Assembly: GCA_016790385.1 (NCBI GenBank)
Contig: JAEUNV010000405.1
Location: 1 to 11,505, forward strand
Reading direction: 5' to 3'
Length of the DNA stretch: 11,505 nucleotides
Source: Zoogloea sp.
GTDB lineage: Bacteria; Pseudomonadota; Gammaproteobacteria; Burkholderiales; Rhodocyclaceae
Positions 47-11,505 of this stretch are shown here, in pieces. The notes under the pieces were generated by a model, which was not told where the DNA came from, searched no databases, and saw only the letters and a list, made by a program, of their open reading frames with translations. The first letter of the stretch is position 1; the number at the start of each line of letters is the position of its first letter. Position numbers and translations under genes: made by a program.

Positions 47-2497
47 TCATGCATGACTCCGTTGAGCCGTAATGGAGCGGGTGGTGAGCCACGCTTCCAC
101 CTTGTCTGCAGAAATGGCGGGAGAAAACAGGTAGCCCTGCCCGAAATCGCAATTGAGCTCCCGCAGCAGATCCGCTTGAGCTCCTGTTTCAATACATTCC
201 GCAACGACGCTCATGCCTAGCTCATGGGCAAGGTGGATGCTGGCGCCCACGATGGCGCGCAGGCGCGTGTCACGCACGATCTCGCGAATGAACGATCCAT
301 CGAGCTTGATGGTGTCGCAGGGGATGGAGTGCAAGTAGCTCAGGGAGGAATAGCCCGTGCCGAAGTCATCGATGAGGATTTTGAGGCCCTTGGCGCGGAG
401 CTTTCCAAGCTGGCTGGTTGCCAGTTCCTTGCGCGTGACCAGCGTGCCTTCAGTGATCTCCAGCTTGAGGGCGCTTGGCGGCAGACCGTGCTTCTCGATG
501 CAGGCAACGATCTGGTCGGCGAGGTCGAGCTGGGTCAGTTGCCGTGCCGAAAGATTCACGCTGATGCTGATCTCGTCGTCGGCAAGACCGCGATCACGCC
601 ACGCTTTGAGGCATCGGCAGCTCTGGTCGAGCATTTGCATGCCAAGGTCGTGAACCAGACCGAGGGATTCCGCAAGGGGAACGAAAACGTCCGGGCCGAT
701 CTGGCGGGTGTTGACCTGGGGCCAGCGGACCAGGGCTTCGAAACCGGTGGTCAGGCTGGATCTCAAATCGACGATGGGCTGAAAATGCGCCACCAGTAGC
801 TGTTCGCGTAGCGCCGCCCGAAGCAGGGATTCGAGTTGCAGGTCGCGCATCACCTGCTGGTGCATGGCGGACTGGAATACGGTGATGGTGCTTTCGGCGC
901 TGCTGCGGGAACGATGCATGGCGTTGTCGGCGTCACGCATCAGGTCTTCGGCATTGTGGAAGCCGCCGCTGCCAAGGGCCACACCGATGCGTGTCTTCGG
1001 ATAGAGGGCGTGTCCGTTGAGTTCGGCGTTCTCGGCCAGGTGTGTCTGCAGCCTTTCGGAGAACCGGATGGCTTCCCCTGCTTCCGCGATGTCGTTGAGA
1101 AGCACGGCAAACTGATCGCCGCCAATGCGCCCGACGACATCACCGGGGCGCGCCAGAGTACGGATGCGCGAGGCGACCAGGCGCAGCAGATCGTCGCCGG
1201 CCGAGTACCCAAGGCTGTCATTGACCACATGGAAGCGTTCGATATTGACGTGAAGGACGGCGAACAGACTGCCTTCAACCCGGTCGGCATGGCGTAGGGT
1301 GTTTTGCAGGTGCTCGACAAACAGCGCCCGGTTGGCGAGGCCGGTGAGGCCGTCGTGAAGAGCGTCGTGAATGAGTTGATCTTCGGCGCGCTTGCGCAGA
1401 TGAATGTCACTGATGGAGCCCGCCATGCGAATCGCGCGGCCGGTGCCCGGATCGAATACGGCAATACCGCAAGCGAGGATCCAGCGATAGGTGCCGTCGG
1501 AGTGACGAATGCGCAGCTCGACCATCAATTGGGCCGATTCGCGCTTCAGATGGGCGATCAGTCGCAGGCGGAAGGCTTCCCTGTCCTCCGGGTGGAGATG
1601 GTCGAGGAGCGTTTCCTTGCGGATCAGGGAAGAGTCGGCGGGAAGGCCGAGGATTTCCATGAAGCGAGGTGCGAAGTAGATCTTGTCGCTGAGGATGTCC
1701 CAGTCCCAGAGGCCGTCGTTGGCCGCGCGTGTGGCGAGGGCGTAACGTTCTTCGCTGGTGGTCAGCTGGCGGGCGGTACTCTCGAGTTCATGGATTCGGG
1801 ACTGGAGCGCCTCGGCCATGCGGTTGAAGTGCTGGCACAGCTGGGCGAGTTCATCCCGCCCATGCTCGGGCAGCCGGTGAGACAACTGACCGGCCGCAAT
1901 GGCCTGACTGCCCCGCAGCAGGCGCCCCAGGTTGCGTGTCATCAGATAGCCGACGGCACCCAGAAGCAGCAGCGTGAGGAGCACCTCGGCGCTGGCGATG
2001 GCGATGCCCTGGTTGAGGATGCGTTGCTTGGCCAGACTAAGGGCGGATACCGAGACGCCAAATTGCACGTAGCCGACCTGGTTGCGTTCGAGCAGGACGG
2101 GGCGTCGGATGTGGATCAGATTGTGCTGCGTGCCGGCGCCCAGGTTGAGGGCTGCGGCATCGTCAGGCTGGGGCAGGGTGAGCATCTCCGGCAGCCCGGC
2201 ACGTACCCGGGTCTGGCCGGCGCTGTCCACGATGCGAACGTAGATGAGCCCCTCGTTGGTTTCGTTGAGAAGCTCGCCCAGGGCGTCCTGGAGTTCGGTG
2301 TAGCGCCCGTGGGGAACAAATGTGGCAGTCACCACATTCAGAATGCCGGCGTTCTGTGCGATCAGCGTATTCAGGCTGGCGGTGGTGGCCTCGTTCATGA
2401 GTCGGCCACTGTTCGTCAGCAGGAGCGTCAGCATCACCACCTGGACCACTGTGCTGGCCAGCAGGAGACGAACGCGGATCGAGAGGTTGCTCAACAT
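47..2497 (-). CDS. Membrane-bound HAMP-PAS-GGDEF-EAL protein, probable c-di-GMP phosphodiesterase
   Basis: This 816-residue inner-membrane protein probably hydrolyses the second messenger c-di-GMP. Order: membrane segment about 10-29, periplasmic sensor about 30-165 (no family recognised), second membrane segment about 167-187, HAMP about 187-240, PAS about 250-370, GGDEF about 378-545, EAL about 555-805. The EAL catalytic residues known from the family are all visible: E587 (EALVRW), N648, E680, D710-D711 (DDFGTGYSS), K731, E767, E770 and Q787. The GGDEF half is degenerate: the first metal-binding aspartate is N418 (NIERF) and the signature is GGDQF (459-463). The product-binding RPGD (450-453) sits exactly five residues before it and is intact. 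The GGDEF half therefore probably acts as a regulatory domain, with the EAL half as the enzyme; this is inference. The ATG lacks a strong Shine-Dalgarno, and no better in-frame start is evident. It lies 142 bases downstream of glnS. Confidence 0.93.
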   Translation of the reverse strand: MLSNLSIRVRLLLASTVVQVVMLTLLLTNSGRLMNEATTASLNTLIAQNAGILNVVTATFVPHGRYTELQDALGELLNETNEGLIYVRIVDSAGQTRVRAGLPEMLTLPQPDDAAALNLGAGTQHNLIHIRRPVLLERNQVGYVQFGVSVSALSLAKQRILNQGIAIASAEVLLTLLLLGAVGYLMTRNLGRLLRGSQAIAAGQLSHRLPEHGRDELAQLCQHFNRMAEALQSRIHELESTARQLTTSEERYALATRAANDGLWDWDILSDKIYFAPRFMEILGLPADSSLIRKETLLDHLHPEDREAFRLRLIAHLKRESAQLMVELRIRHSDGTYRWILACGIAVFDPGTGRAIRMAGSISDIHLRKRAEDQLIHDALHDGLTGLANRALFVEHLQNTLRHADRVEGSLFAVLHVNIERFHVVNDSLGYSAGDDLLRLVASRIRTLARPGDVVGRIGGDQFAVLLNDIAEAGEAIRFSERLQTHLAENAELNGHALYPKTRIGVALGSGGFHNAEDLMRDADNAMHRSRSSAESTITVFQSAMHQQVMRDLQLESLLRAALREQLLVAHFQPIVDLRSSLTTGFEALVRWPQVNTRQIGPDVFVPLAESLGLVHDLGMQMLDQSCRCLKAWRDRGLADDEISISVNLSARQLTQLDLADQIVACIEKHGLPPSALKLEITEGTLVTRKELATSQLGKLRAKGLKILIDDFGTGYSSLSYLHSIPCDTIKLDGSFIREIVRDTRLRAIVGASIHLAHELGMSVVAECIETGAQADLLRELNCDFGQGYLFSPAISADKVEAWLTTRSITAQRSHA

Positions 2498-2639: not shown

Positions 2640-4361
2640 TTACTTCTTCCAGGTGTCGCGCAGGGTTACCGTCCGATTGAACACCGGCGCGCCATCCCGG
2701 GAATCAATCCGGTCGGCAACGAAGTAGCCGTGACGCTCGAACTGGAAGCGGGCTTCGGGCCGGGCGGCCCTCAGCGCGGGCTCAAGCTGGGCGGTGATGA
2801 CCTTTAGACTGTCGGGGTTGATGTCCTCCAGGAAGTCCCGCTCCACGCCTTCCGCATCGCCTTCGCGGCGGCTGCCCGGGTAAGCGTGGGCGAAGAGTCG
2901 GTCGTACAAGCGGACCTCCGCCGTATAGGCGTGAGCCACTGCAACCCAGTGCAGATTTCCTTTGACCTTGTAGTTATCCGCCCCCGGGGTGCCGGATTTT
3001 GAGTCGGGCAAGTACTCGCAGAATACCGCGGTTATGTTGCCATCGGCATCTTTTTCGCAGCCTGTGCATCGGACCACGTAGCCATAGCGCAGACGGGCCA
3101 TGTTGCCAGGGTAGAGCCGGTGGTAGCCCTTGACGGGCGTTTCCATGAAGTCTTCGCGTTCGATCCACAGTTCCCGCCCGAAGGGCATTTCGCGCTTGCC
3201 CAGCTCGGGGTGCAGCGGGTGGTTTGGGGCGTGGCAGCGTTCGGTGTGGCCTTCCGAGTAGTTGGTGATGATCAGTTTGAGCGGATCAAGCACCGCGACG
3301 CGGCGTTCGGCGGCTTCGTTGAGATGCTCGCGCATGCAGTCTTCGAGCACGCTCATGTCGATCCATGAGTCACCCTTCGAGACGCCGATGCGCTCGGCGA
3401 AAAGGCGAAAGCCCTCTGGCGTGAAGCCGCGGCGGCGGGCGCCGACGAGGGTGGGCAGGCGGGGATCGTCCCAGCCGGCCACATGTCCGTCATCCACCAG
3501 CTGGATCAACTTGCGCTTGGACAGCACCACGTAGGTCAGGTTGAGGCGCGCGAACTCGATCTGACGGGGCACCGGCCGGGGAAAGAAGCCGCCGTCGGCC
3601 AGGCTGTCCAGCAGCCAGTCATAGAAGGGGCGCTGATCTTCGAACTCCAGGGTGCAAATCGAGTGGGTAACATCCTCCAGCGCGTCCTCGATGGGGTGCG
3701 CAAAGGTATACATCGGATAAACGCACCAGCGGTCGCCGGTACGGTGGTGGGTGGCGTGGCGGATGCGGTAAATGGCCGGGTCGCGCAGGTTGATGTTGGG
3801 CGAGGCCATGTCGATCTTCGCACGCAGGATGTGGGTGCCGTCGGGGAACTCACCGGCCTTCATGCGCTGGAAGAGTTCGAGGTTCTCGGTCACGCTGCGG
3901 TTGCGGTAGGGGCTGTCGGTGCCAGGTGCCGACAGGGTGCCGCGGTAGGCGCGCATTTCCTCGGCACTCAGCGAGTCCACATAGGCCTTGCCGACGGTGA
4001 TCAGATGTTCGGCCATGGCGTACATCTTGTCGAAGTAGTCCGAAGCGAAGTAAAGGTGCTCTCCCCAGTCGAACCCCAGCCACTGTACGGCCTCGATGAT
4101 GGCGTCGACGTATTCCTGCTCTTCCTTTGTCGGATTGGTGTCGTCAAAGCGCATATGGCAGGCCCCACCATATGCCTCGGCGAGGCCGAAATTCAGGCAG
4201 ATGCTCTTGGCGTGGCCGTAGTGCAGATAGCCGTTGGGCTCCGGCGGGAAGCGGGTTTCGACGCGGCCACCCCATTTGCCGAGGCGGCGGTCTTCGTCAA
4301 TGATGTTGCGGATGAAGTTGCTGGGGGTGGCATCGGAGGCCGGGGAGGTGGGTGCGGTCAT
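2640..4361 (-). CDS. glnS: Glutaminyl-tRNA synthetase
   Basis: GlnRS charges tRNA-Gln with glutamine using ATP in the cytoplasm. The protein has 573 residues, close to the 554 of E. coli GlnRS, with a slightly longer N-terminus. It shows the class I signatures: PEPNGYLHYGHAKSICLNFG at 40-59, where HYGH replaces HIGH, and VVLSKRK (278-284) as the KMSKS loop. The block RFDDTNPTKEEQEYVD at 71-86 is typical of GlnRS/GluRS. The C-terminal anticodon-binding beta-barrel follows (about 355-573), including GNLHWV at 468-473. No YqeY or GatB-like extension is present. The start is the ATG at 4361. It is divergent from the TonB-receptor operon across 291 bases. Presence of GlnRS implies direct Gln-tRNA charging, as usual in beta- and gammaproteobacteria. 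GluRS is excluded by the barrel-type C-terminus. Confidence 0.97.
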   Translation of the reverse strand: MTAPTSPASDATPSNFIRNIIDEDRRLGKWGGRVETRFPPEPNGYLHYGHAKSICLNFGLAEAYGGACHMRFDDTNPTKEEQEYVDAIIEAVQWLGFDWGEHLYFASDYFDKMYAMAEHLITVGKAYVDSLSAEEMRAYRGTLSAPGTDSPYRNRSVTENLELFQRMKAGEFPDGTHILRAKIDMASPNINLRDPAIYRIRHATHHRTGDRWCVYPMYTFAHPIEDALEDVTHSICTLEFEDQRPFYDWLLDSLADGGFFPRPVPRQIEFARLNLTYVVLSKRKLIQLVDDGHVAGWDDPRLPTLVGARRRGFTPEGFRLFAERIGVSKGDSWIDMSVLEDCMREHLNEAAERRVAVLDPLKLIITNYSEGHTERCHAPNHPLHPELGKREMPFGRELWIEREDFMETPVKGYHRLYPGNMARLRYGYVVRCTGCEKDADGNITAVFCEYLPDSKSGTPGADNYKVKGNLHWVAVAHAYTAEVRLYDRLFAHAYPGSRREGDAEGVERDFLEDINPDSLKVITAQLEPALRAARPEARFQFERHGYFVADRIDSRDGAPVFNRTVTLRDTWKK

Positions 4362-4418
4362 CGGGTGCTTACCTTGACGGGCGCTGGCGGACAGCCGCCG
4401 GGTTCGAAAAATCCTGTG

Positions 4419-4424
4419 ATTGTA
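4419..4424 (-). promoter_or_regulatory. Candidate -10 box for glnS
   Basis: On the minus strand this reads TACAAT, five of six matches to the sigma-70 -10 consensus, ending about 57 bases before the glnS ATG. The -35 side is poor (CCTTCG or TTCGAT at plausible spacings), so this is a position-based guess rather than a confident promoter. Confidence 0.3.
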
Positions 4425-4482
4425 GCCGATGGCAGCGATATCGAAGGGCGCCTGGGCGGGCGCAATCCATCGGGGGTAGCGT

Positions 4483-4501
4483 GATGAATATCGCGATTAT
4501 C
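4483..4501 (+). promoter_or_regulatory. Weak Fur-box-like or palindromic operator candidate
   Basis: GATGAATATCGCGATTATC matches the classical 19-base Fur consensus at 12 of 19 positions by hand alignment; matches lie mostly in the outer arms. Its centre contains the perfect palindrome ATCGCGAT. It lies about 150 bases upstream of the TonB-receptor start, and such receptors are often Fur-regulated. The central mismatches make this tentative; it may be the site of another dimeric regulator, or chance. Confidence 0.25.
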
Positions 4502-4652
4502 TTTTCTCAAACAGCTTTTTTCCTGCGGCTGCGTATTGTTTGTCATTGTGTGCCAAGCACCTGGGGTAAAAGGCTGGCTGTCCGTGTAAAAATTTAACAA
4601 TGCGACGCGGTAGCTGCACCGATCCCGCCACTCATTTACTCCGAGAGTCCTC

Positions 4653-6683
4653 ATGACGAGCCGATTTGCCCTTCTCCTGGTCGCTCCCGCCCTGTGTTGG
4701 GGGACCGCAGCCCATGCCGATGACCCTTCGTTGGCAGACCTGAGCCTGGAAGAGCTGGTCAGACTTGACGTGTCCGCGGTCTCGCGCAAGGCGCAGAAGC
4801 TTTCGGACACGCCGGCGGCGGTCACCGTACTGTCGGCGGCGGACATCCGGCGAAGCGGTGCCCGGAGCGTGCCAGAAGCGCTTCGCGAAGTGCCCGGCGT
4901 GATCGTGTCGCAGATCGGGTCCGGCCGTTGGTCGGTAGGGGTCCGCGGTTGGGGCGGGCGGTTCTCCAACAAACTCCTGGTTCAGATTGATGGGCGCAGT
5001 GTGTATAGCCCGCTTTTCTCCGGTGTCTTCTGGGAGGCACTTGATGTCGTCCTGGCCGATGTTGAGCGTATTGAGGTGATTCGTGGCCCCGGTGCATCCC
5101 TGTGGGGTGCCAATGCCGTGAACGGCGTGATCAATATCGTCACCCGCAAGGCGACTGCGACGGTCGGCACCCTGGTGTCGGCCGACGTGGATAATGGTGG
5201 GCACGCATCCCTCGCGGTGCGTCAGGGCGTCGACCTTGGCGATGCCGGTGCCCTGCGCGTCTTTGCCAAGGGCGGCGAGCTGGGCGGGTCGCGGACCCGT
5301 GAAGGGGGAGGTGGGCCCGACTACAATCGGGGCTGGGTTGCGGGGTTCCGCATGGATGGGGCCGGTTCGGGCGTGGACGCATGGACGCTCCAAGGGAGCA
5401 GCAACCGCCGGACAAGTGGAGAAAACATCACAACCAACTCGCTCACGGGCGAACAGGCAGCACTGCCCCTCGACTTCGTGTTTGAAAGCACCAACCTGCT
5501 CGGGCGCTACAACTGGGGTCTGGCCGGGGGGGAGGCATCCGTCCAGGCTTATGTCGATCAGCAGCTCGCCAACGTTGGCACCTACGGCAAGGGTACGGTC
5601 AACACCGCCGACCTGGATTTCCAGCATCGACTGGTGCCGTATGGCGTCCACGAAATCATGTGGGGCTTGGGCGGACGGCTGGTACAGACCGAGATCGTCG
5701 CCGCGTCCCCGGTGTTGAGCATCTCTCCGCCCAGGCGCAACTCCCGGGTCTTCAGTGCGTTCGTACAGGATGAGATCACCCTGGTTCCGCAAACCTGGAA
5801 GTTGACCCTTGGCGGGCGCTTCGAATATTCCAGCCTGTCGCGTTTCGAGCCCCAGCCAACCGCAAGGCTGATGTGGACGCCGAATATGGAGGACAGCCTG
5901 TGGGCCAGCTGGTCGCGGGCGGCACGCACGCCATCGATAGGCGAAAGCGATGCGACCATACTTTTTGGTTCTCAGCCGCTCCCGCCGGGCTCTCCGATAC
6001 CCATGGTGGCGCTGGCTTCCCGGCCCGGTGCCAGCTGGAGCCGGCGTGCCGAGCGGGTGGATACGGTGGAGCTGGGTTACCGCCGCAACCTGGGTAACGG
6101 CAGCCTTGAGGCCGTATTGTTCCACAGCGACTACCACCGCCTGATTTCCGAGCAGACCGACCCCAACGGATTGGTTTTTCCGACTTCGCCGCTCCCGGTG
6201 GAGCCTTTCACCGTGCCGATCCAGTACCTGCAACGGGGCAACCAGTCGGCCGCCCGCAGCTATGGCGTCGAGCTTGGGGTGGATCTGCCCGTCACCTCCG
6301 CACTGCGCTTGCAGGCCAGCTATACCCTCATGGACACGCGTGTGAGGCGGAGTGCCGATGCGGTTGCCAACGCCACCGCACGAGAGCGGGAGGAGTCGGC
6401 GCCGCAGCATTGGGGGAGTTTGCGCATGGCCATGAACCTGGGGAGAGGGCAGGAGATTGATGTGGCCGCCCGACGGGTTGGCACCATCGGCACGGGCGAC
6501 GTACCGGCCTATACCGCGGTGGACTTCCGCTACGCCTGGCGCGTGAGCCGCTACTTCGATCTGTATTTCGTCGCGCTGAATCTCTTCGATCCGCTCCACC
6601 TGGAATACGTGTCCAACTTCTTCCCCGGGCAGCCGGTGTATCAGCCCCGGACGGCCTTTCTCCAGGGCGTGTGGCGTTTCTGA
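4653..6683 (+). CDS. TonB-dependent outer-membrane receptor
   Basis: This 676-residue protein should form a plugged outer-membrane beta-barrel energised by TonB-ExbBD. A signal peptide runs to about residue 22 (AHA then DDPS). A short N-terminal stretch, LADLSLEELVRLDVSAVSRK (28-46), precedes the plug domain (about 47-165), which carries DTPAAVTVL (52-60) and the hallmark RGPGASLWGANAVNGVINIV (144-163). The remaining 510 or so residues form the barrel and end in FLQGVWRF, with the terminal phenylalanine used by the outer-membrane assembly machinery. No STN domain is present, so it is not a classical FecA-type transducer; the substrate cannot be read from sequence (siderophore, cobalamin or other). 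GAGAG at 4643-4647 is the likely Shine-Dalgarno. It leads an operon with a YfiR-like protein and a hybrid kinase, suggesting a sensing role. No tonB or exbBD gene is in the window. Confidence 0.93.
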   Translation: MTSRFALLLVAPALCWGTAAHADDPSLADLSLEELVRLDVSAVSRKAQKLSDTPAAVTVLSAADIRRSGARSVPEALREVPGVIVSQIGSGRWSVGVRGWGGRFSNKLLVQIDGRSVYSPLFSGVFWEALDVVLADVERIEVIRGPGASLWGANAVNGVINIVTRKATATVGTLVSADVDNGGHASLAVRQGVDLGDAGALRVFAKGGELGGSRTREGGGGPDYNRGWVAGFRMDGAGSGVDAWTLQGSSNRRTSGENITTNSLTGEQAALPLDFVFESTNLLGRYNWGLAGGEASVQAYVDQQLANVGTYGKGTVNTADLDFQHRLVPYGVHEIMWGLGGRLVQTEIVAASPVLSISPPRRNSRVFSAFVQDEITLVPQTWKLTLGGRFEYSSLSRFEPQPTARLMWTPNMEDSLWASWSRAARTPSIGESDATILFGSQPLPPGSPIPMVALASRPGASWSRRAERVDTVELGYRRNLGNGSLEAVLFHSDYHRLISEQTDPNGLVFPTSPLPVEPFTVPIQYLQRGNQSAARSYGVELGVDLPVTSALRLQASYTLMDTRVRRSADAVANATAREREESAPQHWGSLRMAMNLGRGQEIDVAARRVGTIGTGDVPAYTAVDFRYAWRVSRYFDLYFVALNLFDPLHLEYVSNFFPGQPVYQPRTAFLQGVWRF

Positions 6684-6685
6684 GG
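6682..6685 (+). promoter_or_regulatory. Shine-Dalgarno deciding a GTG start
   Basis: GAGG overlaps the TGA stop of the TonB receptor and lies eight bases before the GTG at 6694. This supports the GTG start, which gives a complete signal peptide to the YfiR-like protein, and suggests that its translation is coupled to that of the receptor. Confidence 0.6.
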
Positions 6686-6693
6686 ACTCGCAG

Positions 6694-7241
6694 GTGATTC
6701 GCCACCTTTGTCGCCATGTGCTGGCGCTGATCATCGGGTTGGCGGGGTCGTCACTGATGGCGGCTCCGCAGCCGGGTGAGTACCAGATCAAGGCGGCTTA
6801 CCTGATCAACTTTGCCCGCTACATGGAGTGGCCGGCGGGCCGTCTGCCTGCGGGAGCGGTCTTGCGCCTGTGCCTGCTCGGCCGTGACCCCTTCGGTGGT
6901 TCGCTGCTTGCTCTGGAGGGGCGGCCGGTGCAGGGGCGCGAAGTACGTTTCAGGCAGGTGGACAGCCTCGATCAGGCACTGGAATGCCATATCGTGTTCG
7001 TCTCCGGTTCGGAAGAGCGCCGCCTGGGGCTGATCCTTCGTGGTCTGTCAGGGCGGGGCGTGCTGTCGGTCAGCGACATCGAAGGCTTTGCCGAAGCGGG
7101 CGGGGGGATTGGCATGGTCACCGAGGATGATCGGGTCCGCTTCGACATCAACCAGGCTGCCCTCACCCGGGACGGTCTGCGCGCAAGCTCCCAGCTGCTG
7201 CGCCTCGGGCGCCAGGTGTTCGGCACCGAAAGGGGCCCGCG

Positions 7242-7245
<4 letters not shown>
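6694..7245 (+). CDS. YfiR-family (DUF4154) periplasmic protein
   Basis: YfiR is a periplasmic repressor that, in Pseudomonas, binds the periplasmic domain of the diguanylate cyclase YfiN (TpbB). This 183-residue protein has a signal peptide of about 23 residues and the family blocks [18 protein letters not shown] (30-47), [11 protein letters not shown] (58-68), [10 protein letters not shown] (98-107), [20 protein letters not shown] (122-141) and [10 protein letters not shown] (148-157). The mature protein has two cysteines, C60 and C98, whose spacing fits the first disulfide pair of P. aeruginosa YfiR (C71-C110, from memory); the second pair is absent. It starts at a GTG ten bases after the receptor stop, and its stop overlaps the kinase start (ATGA). 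The next gene carries the CHASE8-like sensor that YfiR proteins bind in YfiN, so it probably controls that kinase. I omit the name yfiR because the partner differs. Confidence 0.92.
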
Positions 7246-10006
<2,761 letters not shown>

Positions 10007-10010
<4 letters not shown>

Positions 10011-11505
10011 CGGCAACTGAAAGCGCCCGCATACTCGTTGTGGACGATGATCCACTGACCCGCCTGATGGCCTCTGAGGCCCTGCGCGAGGGAGGTTTTT
10101 CAACACTTGAGGCGGAAGACGGCGGGAAGGCCCTTGACCTGTTCGATGCCGCCTTGCCGGACCTCATCCTGCTTGACGTGATGATGCCGGGTTTGAGCGG
10201 CTTTGAGGTATGCCAGCAGATGCGCGCCCGGCGCAACGGTGCGCTGGTGCCGATCATCATGCTCACCGGCCTCGACGACGGTGATTCCGTGCAGCGCGCC
10301 TTCGACGCCGGTGCGACCGACTTCATATCGAAGCCGATCAACTGGACGCTGCTGCGCTTCCGCATCCGCTATGTCCTGCGCTCTGCCCAGGCGATGAAGG
10401 AGCTGACGCGGAGCAAGGAGAGTCTTTCCAACGCCCAGCGTATTGCCCGCCTCGGGAGCTGGGAATGGTTTGTCCAGGAAGATCGGGTCCAGCGTTCAGA
10501 CCAGTATTACCGCTTGTTTGGCCAGGCCGCCAGTGTCTTCGGCGAGGGCATCGAGGCGGTGCTGGAGCATGTCTATCTGCCGGATCGAATTCTCGTCGCC
10601 GCCGCCATCCAGGGCGCGCGTGGTGGCGCGGGCTATCAACTCACTTACCGGGTTGTGTGGCCCGACGGGCGGGTGCGCACGGTCGTCGAGACCGTGGAGC
10701 CCGGGGATTCAAGCGAAGGCGCGGCCGGTTTGGTGATGGAGGGGAGTGTTCAGGACATCACCGATCAGGTGGATGCCCAGCGACGCATCCGGCAACTGGC
10801 CTACTACGATCACCTCACCGGCCTGCCCAACCGGGAGTTCTTTCGCGAGAACCTTCTCGGCGTGGCCGTGCGCTGCCTGCGCAACGATTGCCGCTGTGCG
10901 GTGATGGTCGTCGATATCGATCGTTTTGCGCGGATCAACGACAGCCTCGGCCCCGAACGGGGAGACCAGGTGCTTCAGGTGATCGGCCACCGTCTGCGGG
11001 AGAGCATGGGGGATCGGGCGCCTGCCGAGCCCGCGGGGGGCGGTGCCTTGCCCTGCTTCAAGGTGGCGCGCCTTGCCGCTGATGAATTTGGCATTCTGAT
11101 GCCCGACGTTGGTGATCTGGGGGAGGTCTTGGAGGTCGCCCACCGATTGCTGGGCGTCGTCCGGGCGCCCATCCATGTGCCGGGGCAGGACATCACGCTG
11201 TCCGCACGTATCGGGCTTGCGGTCATGCCCGATCATACCGGCGACGCCGATGCCCTCCTGAAGGCGGCGGAAACGGCCCTCAACCGGGCCAAGCGCACCA
11301 ATGGCGAACCGGTCGCGCTGTTTTCGGAAGAAATGAAGGTCGCCGCCTTCCTGCGCTTCACCCTCGAAGGTGAGTTGCGGCGGGCGATCGGTGATCACGA
11401 GTTGCGGGTTGTCTATCAGCCCATCGTCGATGCGGTGACCGGCACCATCGTCAAGGCCGAGGCGCTGGTACGCTGGCCTCACATGGGGCGCGGGCCGGTG
11501 CCGCC
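10007..11505 (+). CDS. Response regulator REC-PAS-GGDEF-EAL (partial, runs off the right edge)
   Basis: The reading frame stays open from the ATG at 10007 to the window end (499 complete codons). Order: receiver about 7-125 with D13-D15, phospho-acceptor D57 ([10 protein letters not shown]) and K109 (FISKP); PAS about 140-258 ending in the PAC-like [13 protein letters not shown] about 262-440; start of an EAL domain from about 451 with E485 in AEALVRW. In the GGDEF domain the metal-binding D303 (DIDRF) and INDSLG are kept, but the signature is AADEF (357-361) and no RxxD inhibitory site precedes it, so cyclase activity is doubtful. EAL residues beyond E485 lie outside the window. It starts within the kinase stop codon (ATGA) and has no good Shine-Dalgarno, so translation is probably coupled. 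It is the obvious phosphate acceptor for the kinase HPt. Output is inferred to be c-di-GMP hydrolysis or binding. Confidence 0.93.

Follow-up and report, generated by a model that had tools for sequence, protein, structure and literature searches.

The window analyzed here, an 11,505-nucleotide stretch of Zoogloea sp. DNA that is the entire contig C388 (1-11505) of a 3.0 Mb draft assembly (696 contigs, 72% complete), contains at 4653-11505 four plus-strand genes for a TonB-dependent receptor (TBDR), a YfiR-like protein, a hybrid histidine kinase with a CHASE8 sensor, and a REC-PAS-GGDEF-EAL response regulator. We document below which genes are present and in what order, their domains, their intact relay motifs, and the conservation of their linkage; the module is real and conserved. 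We read it as a YfiNR-type envelope module with a phosphorelay output and a TBDR as the linked outer-membrane component, a reading that, with the switching mechanism we propose for it, has in our judgment about an even chance of being correct.

The genes form one tight operon, with a 10-base gap between the receptor and YfiR-like genes followed by two 4-base overlaps, and its 3′ side ends at the contig boundary. Open reading frames (ORFs) and Pfam confirm the four-gene operon that the initial annotation, made from the letters of the DNA, had described. The receptor matches the Plug (7.7e-23) and beta-barrel (3.3e-31) models, and Pfam finds no STN domain in it, which agrees with the earlier statement that it lacks an STN-type transducer domain; its best NCBIfam match is the TOL_0244 family, with 514 bits under a 645-bit cut-off. 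The YfiR-like protein has a signal-peptide-like start (judged by eye), a DUF4154 match (3.3e-44), and a phmmer match to PDB entry 4xjy (4.2e-11). The top Foldseek match of its AlphaFold model (pLDDT 93.9) is Pseudomonas aeruginosa YfiR, with a template modeling (TM) score of 0.74 to 4yn9. Both the sequence and the comparison of model with solved structure uphold membership in the YfiR family, as first proposed, while the scores are under the NCBIfam cut-offs for the sequest_YfiR equivalog (41/85 bits) and for TOL_0243 (120.1/125 bits). Below the YfiR entries, Foldseek places short Rhodothermus substrate-binding proteins that match over their full length (6k1x, TMt 0.58) and 3lft, which matches over about one lobe (TMt 0.31).

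Pfam reads the kinase as CHASE8, HAMP, HisKA (with His282), HATPase_c, REC, and Hpt. The hidden Markov model search places residues 42-148 in CHASE8 (7e-12), so that the sensor assignment, originally drawn at 35-158, stands. When the window sensor is aligned with 41 further sensors, all 42 match CHASE8, an agreement expected beforehand since the 41 were gathered with a profile grown from the window sensor. Against the NCBIfam model HK_near_YfiR_like the kinase scores 147.8 bits, under the 194-bit cut-off. By eye, the phospho-acceptor motifs are intact in both the kinase (SHEIRTP, DIQMP, AHKMKS) and the regulator (LLDVMMP). The C-terminal Hpt domain, which the initial annotation did not mention, completes an H-D-H-D relay, and domains and motifs together predict a hybrid-kinase phosphorelay with a HisKA His, a REC Asp, an Hpt His, and a separate receiver.

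The linkage of these genes was counted from two directions. Of 398 genomes of the phylum, 94 contain DUF4154, and from these the census took one genome for each of 53 genera, with every DUF4154 place listed for it, plus the second copy in the window's own genome, giving 54 genomes, 76 regions, and 77 YfiR genes; L003 and L160-L162, which had been reached via the kinase, were left out. Expected linkage was computed from the TBDR count of each genome; because the counts for G467 and G524 are lower bounds (at least) and neighbors were called with our own receptor-family profile, expected and observed linkage are both slightly low. With the proviso that genera are not independent evolutionary samples, a TBDR lies within 1.5 kb of YfiR in 44/77 cases (1.6 expected) and within 6 kb in 48/77 (4.2 expected). 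In genomes with six or fewer TBDRs, 28 of 33 YfiR genes are TBDR-linked, and the 13 YfiR genes of five Zoogloea genomes all lie within about 6 kb of one of the 68 TBDRs. Searching the genome collection with the receptor alone gave 42 loci, of which 39 contain YfiR at a distance of no more than 1.5 kb and 29 contain a CHASE8 kinase as well. The three without YfiR are L059, L065, and L073, the sequence of the last ending at the receptor. The eleven nearest receptor loci are all from Zoogloea (55-87% identity). That the genes are unrelated and adjacent by chance is, given these counts in both directions, barely conceivable; nothing was found to speak for it, and we reject it; the conserved three-gene linkage that was to be looked for in relatives is present. 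Equal numbers of YfiR and CHASE8-sensor genes were also considered as a rule and set aside as evidence, as they occur in 11/12 Zoogloea genomes (split hits counted once) and only 3/7 others.

The linkage depends on what the CHASE8 sensor drives. A TBDR accompanies YfiR within 6 kb in 26/34 cases with a CHASE8 kinase, 4/7 with a CHASE8-GGDEF-EAL protein, and 1/13 with a CHASE8-GGDEF protein of YfiN type (kinase versus CHASE8-GGDEF, Fisher p 2.5e-5). In the remaining classes it is present at 3/6 YfiR-kinase fusions, at 3/3 CHASE8 genes of unread output, and at 11/14 YfiR genes that showed no CHASE8 gene within 1.5 kb. Both the quantification of receptor linkage and the observation that it tracks the output domain are new here.

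Residues of YfiR at or near the contacts with YfiN or YfiB have been mapped (PMC3375315, PMC4655355). V148, F150, and L171 of the window protein align with P. aeruginosa residues 160, 162, and 183, which were proposed for YfiN binding, and among 174 kinase-paired YfiR proteins F150 is kept in 140 and L169 in 166. Cys60 and Cys98 align with the redox-labile Cys71-Cys110 pair of P. aeruginosa YfiR; both are present in 127 of the 174 and both absent in 43. The Cys145-Cys152 pair is missing from the window protein, whose only cysteines are Cys6, Cys60, and Cys98. On the kinase side, Phe65 (SPLRF) aligns with the Phe of YfiN AAVVF and is invariant in 174/174 YfiR-paired kinases, which are unique pairs rather than independent lineages, and in 43/43 GGDEF partners; the alignment to AAVVF was built without the P. 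aeruginosa YfiN sequence. The invariance of the Phe aligned with the proposed YfiR-contact Phe of YfiN is a new observation.

Coevolution lends modest support to a predicted contact between YfiR and the kinase. In 157 kinase loci, YfiR 161-172 pairs best, within CHASE8, with sensor residues 56-67 (z 0.49), compared with 0.34 for the best cytoplasmic kinase window taken as a control. YfiR segment 36-47 passes on raw scores (0.39 versus 0.27 for the control) and fails after double-centering (0.42 versus 0.45). For 235 unique YfiR-sensor pairs, the mean of the ten best scores is 0.95, against 0.74 in 20 shuffled pairings, although shuffling also strips relatedness. Of the sliding blocks, 0.8% score at least as high as the block defined by the Malone residues (YfiR 139-175 with kinase 56-70), or 2.0% when the 174 kinases are taken alone, for which eight kinase-only shuffles gave -0.11 to 0. 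The global scans are nonspecific by their negative control, and only the targeted window comparison was counted; one block test, with limits chosen after the top pairs were known, was not used.

The receptor itself has a feature that may bear on its role. Linked receptors have in common an N-terminal segment resembling L-x-D-L-S-L-E-E-L ahead of a TonB-box-like stretch, which in the window (LDVSAVS, residues 38-44, judged by eye) directly follows LSLEEL. By a profile-based count, the pattern hydrophobic-[EDQ]-x-[LMI] is found in 140/150 YfiR-linked receptors and in 3/20 unlinked receptors from Zoogloea genomes, with the reservation that all the linked receptors were collected with one family profile, so that common descent may explain the shared motif. 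A column-based count gives 123/144 linked receptors. This N-terminal motif in YfiR-linked receptors is newly described here. The three unlinked Zoogloea receptors with a hydrophobic-acidic-x-Leu pattern, L384, L390, and L396, carry it in the stretch FFE(D/E)LPTVLSASR.

In the regulator, Pfam finds REC, PAS_3, and GGDEF, followed by EAL, of which 41 residues are present before the contig ends. The cyclase site, on which the initial annotation was silent, reads AADEF both in the window and in 11/11 Zoogloea orthologues, so the GG[D/E]EF signature of a diguanylate cyclase is absent. EAL, DDFGTG, and KID are intact in 11/11 of these orthologues, and the window shows EAL before the contig end. Because an AADEF site is combined with an intact EAL motif, the Zoogloea regulator probably degrades cyclic di-GMP (c-di-GMP). 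The earlier suggestion that c-di-GMP output has been moved one phosphorelay downstream holds in part: relay domains do lead to a c-di-GMP enzyme, but its output looks like breakdown rather than synthesis. Outside Zoogloea, the regulators of comparable loci (L048, L125, L136, L160-L163) have GGDEF or SGDEF, and in the Zoogloea regulators L209 and L210 no GGDEF-like motif was found in the cyclase domain. As judged from these motifs, the sign of the c-di-GMP output appears to vary across the family. L209 and L210 come from yet another Zoogloea system, whose genes run YfiR, kinase, REC-PAS-GGDEF-EAL, receptor.

Two Zoogloea loci have lost the kinase. In Z. ramigera (L042) and in L043, the receptor, YfiR, a short Hpt protein, and the regulator are kept, with loss of the CHASE8 sensor and the kinase core. 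Between these two loci, the ratio of nonsynonymous to synonymous substitution rates (dN/dS) is 0.18 for the receptor, 0.18 for YfiR, and 0.56 for Hpt; six kinase-keeping pairs, some with dS >1, give 0.05-0.25, 0.07-0.22, and 0.05-0.31, respectively. The receptor and YfiR thus remain under constraint after kinase loss, and Hpt less so. Because L042 and L043 keep YfiR without this kinase, the data suggest that YfiR need not act on the neighboring kinase only; either its present partner is a different kinase or it has some further function. Each of the two genomes carries a CHASE8 kinase without a YfiR neighbor, and these orphans were rejected as the lost kinase relocated, with sensor identities of 26-27%. 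In six of the 77 census genes (L112, L113, L117, L118, L154, L168), YfiR is fused directly to a kinase core, in the order YfiR, coiled-coil-like stretch (by eye), kinase core; two of the six were confirmed with Pfam, and three stand beside a TonB receptor. No natural YfiR-CHASE8 fusion was found among the fusions seen, which join YfiR to the kinase core.

The window's own genome has a second, paralogous receptor-YfiR-CHASE8 kinase locus (L159, C342:12200-16900), and no c-di-GMP enzyme was found on that contig. At L163 (13767-18416), in a genome (G278) with seven DUF4154 places, a receptor-YfiR pair is followed by HDOD-REC-GGDEF and REC-GGDEF-EAL genes, with no CHASE8 protein. Coordinates are collected in Table 1. 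Of the two genes upstream of the operon, the HAMP-PAS-GGDEF-EAL gene is found at a similar place in most complete Zoogloea loci (L033-L041). A search of 4300-4760 for a sigma-70-like promoter gave no match, and neither did Rfam and tRNA scans of the window.

Table 1. Features of the window and of two kinase-less loci, with the basis of each assignment
Feature	Coordinates	Strand	Basis
TonB-dependent receptor (TBDR), 676 aa	4653-6683	+	ORF call, Pfam, NCBIfam
LSLEEL motif, receptor residues 30-35	4740-4757	+	profile-based motif count
YfiR-like protein (DUF4154), GTG start	6694-7245	+	ORF call, Pfam, structure match
YfiR-like Cys60 to Cys98	6871-6987	+	alignment to P. aeruginosa YfiR
YfiR C-terminal hydrophobic patch (V148, F150, L171)	7135-7206	+	alignment, residues counted by hand
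Hybrid histidine kinase, 922 aa	7242-10010	+	ORF call, Pfam
Kinase CHASE8	7365-7685	+	Pfam
Kinase SPLRF, residues 61-65	7422-7436	+	aligned with YfiN AAVVF
Kinase REC	9186-9527	+	Pfam
Kinase Hpt	9699-9914	+	Pfam
Response regulator REC-PAS_3-GGDEF-EAL	10007-11503, runs off contig end within EAL	+	ORF call, Pfam
Degenerate GGDEF site, AADEF	11075-11089	+	motif reading
EAL motif AEALVRW, intact	11456-11476	+	motif reading
Glutamyl/glutaminyl-tRNA synthetase gene, upstream of operon	2640-4361	-	ORF call, Pfam
HAMP-PAS-GGDEF-EAL gene, GGDQF-type site, upstream of operon	47-2497	-	ORF call, Pfam
Short Hpt protein with HisKA-like remnant	L042 9978-11192, L043 4312-4896		by eye (remnant)

The mechanism that we propose for the module is as follows. 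Periplasmic YfiR would bind the CHASE8 domain of the kinase via the C-terminal patch that P. aeruginosa YfiR uses, and bound YfiR would lock the kinase in a single state, most likely the off state. On ligand binding, or through the action of TonB, the receptor would withdraw YfiR, most likely via its periplasm-facing N-terminal segment, and the withdrawal would change the state of the kinase. Phosphate would then pass from His282 to REC, to Hpt, and to the REC domain of the regulator, whose phosphorylation most likely alters c-di-GMP breakdown and thereby flocculation or adhesion. Alkanes and other hydrophobic substrates are no more than a lead to the ligand. On YfiR, the site contacted by YfiB overlaps residues tied to YfiN (PMC4655355), and by analogy the receptor may use this site too. 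A sharper version, in which the receptor LSLEEL segment and the kinase Phe motif compete for one YfiR patch and ligand or TonB force acting on the receptor plug hands YfiR from kinase to receptor, would be a widespread route independent of STN; we hold it to be improbable.

Several results weigh against this scheme. Global YfiR-sensor blocks score no higher than blocks of YfiR with the cytoplasmic kinase core, and the top single YfiR-sensor pair (1.16) stays below the shuffle maximum (1.39). The conservation of Phe65 may serve folding alone. A first receptor-YfiR scan (146 pairs) had receptor 26-37 with YfiR 161-172 as its top 12x12 block (z 0.49), but in the 84 loci with a kinase the receptor N-terminus couples at 0.40-0.52 with YfiR and at 0.59-0.63 with the cytoplasmic kinase core; since the latter coupling is as strong, receptor-YfiR coevolution was rejected as evidence. 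In the census, a TBDR is missing from the 6 kb around 29/77 YfiR genes, and for 11 that do have one, no CHASE8 gene turned up within 1.5 kb. At L042 and L043 the kinase is lost and YfiR is still constrained; therefore, YfiR has or found another target. Finally, two paralogous Zoogloea regulators (L211, L214) retain GGDEF, so that breakdown is not universal in such systems.

Three other readings of the same genes deserve consideration. In LuxP-LuxQ, a loaded binding protein switches a kinase, and YfiR could likewise be a ligand-binding co-receptor: the TBDR would import a substrate, and loaded YfiR would switch the kinase, with no contact between receptor and YfiR required. It is usual for a TBDR to transport a substrate that is then sensed, the receptor-YfiR coupling is not specific, and substrate-binding proteins do rank below the YfiR entries in Foldseek (6k1x, 3lft). 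Yet the match to the two-lobed binding proteins spans about one lobe (3lft), and solved YfiR acts by protein-protein contact with YfiB (PMC4655355), with the contact residues kept here, which leaves us rather doubtful of this reading. The receptor might instead be a co-regulated transporter and not an input at all, with YfiR and the CHASE8 kinase sensing envelope state or redox alone and the substrate being useful in the same conditions. The alignment of Cys60-Cys98 with a redox-labile pair, both cysteines being present in 127/174 YfiR proteins, speaks for such an arrangement, as do YfiNR pairs without YfiB (PMC3375315). Linked receptors, however, share the N-terminal motif (140/150, in one family profile), and their linkage is mainly with kinase or GGDEF-EAL output and hardly with YfiN-type cyclases. 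Because receptor linkage tracks the output domain, a passive passenger is not expected, and we regard this account as unlikely.

The remaining alternative concerns sign. YfiR might be an activator or co-factor of the kinase, its polarity opposite to that toward YfiN. Polarity is unreadable from sequence, and the constraint on YfiR after kinase loss and the cis fusions fit either polarity; that P. aeruginosa YfiR represses YfiN (PMC3375315) argues the other way, and an activating YfiR seems to us a poor prospect.

To the best of our knowledge, how TBDRs without an STN domain report their ligands has been poorly explained so far. The set of receptor, YfiR, and kinase, which recurs in many Pseudomonadota, would be a specific route linking uptake to c-di-GMP. 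Zoogloea is a floc former of sewage treatment, and the operon names candidate genes for flocculation control in this genus. The set could also account for alkane-responsive receptors said to start signaling. In Thalassolituus, TOL_0244 is up sevenfold on n-C28 alkane relative to Tween 80, and its similarity to Alcanivorax dieselolei OmpS is 40% (PMC6304351); OmpS is described as starting an alkane signaling cascade (PMC5174103). Competition for YfiR, if it does occur, would explain how TOL_0244-family receptors, perhaps including Alcanivorax OmpS, start signaling cascades.

The coupling of YfiR to a kinase is not new. Malone 2012 already proposed YfiR acting on a YfiN-like kinase sensor, describing divergent systems that swap the YfiN GGDEF for GGDEF-EAL pairs, Hpt domains, or sensor kinases, proposing a modular YfiR-YfiN[PAS/HAMP] core, and naming a Thauera hybrid kinase system (PMC3375315). 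The window appears to be a case of that core, with yfiR adjoining a kinase that has a predicted CHASE8-HAMP input and conserved hydrophobic contact residues. The likeness to the divergent systems, among them the Thauera sp. MZ1T hybrid kinase with two YfiR proteins, lies in the pairing of YfiR with a YfiN-like kinase sensor; the word "TonB" is not in the main text of that paper, and its available portion describes no receptor or response regulator. In open-licence full text we found no paper that connects YfiR with both a TonB receptor and a kinase, and the accessible portions of PMC9611778 and PMC8294551 describe no such link. We encountered the receptor as a linked outer-membrane partner only in database names. 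The NCBIfam entries NF053590, NF053591, and NF053592 (TOL_0244 TBDR, TOL_0243 YfiR-like, HK near YfiR-like) cover the same three gene families, and their names imply the same neighborhood in Thalassolituus oleivorans while stating no mechanism; all three window proteins differ in scoring under the curated cut-offs (514/645, 120.1/125, and 147.8/194 bits).

Compared with YfiBNR itself (P. aeruginosa PA1119-1121), the window has in common a YfiR-family protein beside an inner-membrane CHASE8/PAS-HAMP sensor, the kept contact residues, and a c-di-GMP-related output. It differs in that the sensor drives a hybrid kinase and a separate regulator rather than forming a CHASE8-HAMP-GGDEF cyclase, in that the regulator looks like a phosphodiesterase, and in the absence of the Cys145-Cys152 pair. 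YfiB binds YfiR via its OmpA-like domain (PMC4655355). A Pfam scan of six window proteins, which did not extend to the remaining genome, found no YfiB-like OmpA/PAL domain, and in place of YfiB stands a TBDR without a Pfam counterpart of that domain. These findings suggest that evolution has exchanged not just the output side of the YfiNR module but its input side as well. In FecA-type TonB transducers, receptors with an STN domain signal inward; the window receptor has no such domain, its proposed route would run through YfiR to the kinase, and no anti-sigma or sigma protein is present among the six window proteins scanned with Pfam. WalK, of which structure 9a5d is a Foldseek match (TM 0.63), is governed by the accessory proteins YycH/YycI. 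This system likewise places an extracytoplasmic PAS/Cache-type kinase sensor under an accessory extracytoplasmic protein, but it does so with another accessory family, no outer membrane, and no c-di-GMP regulator.

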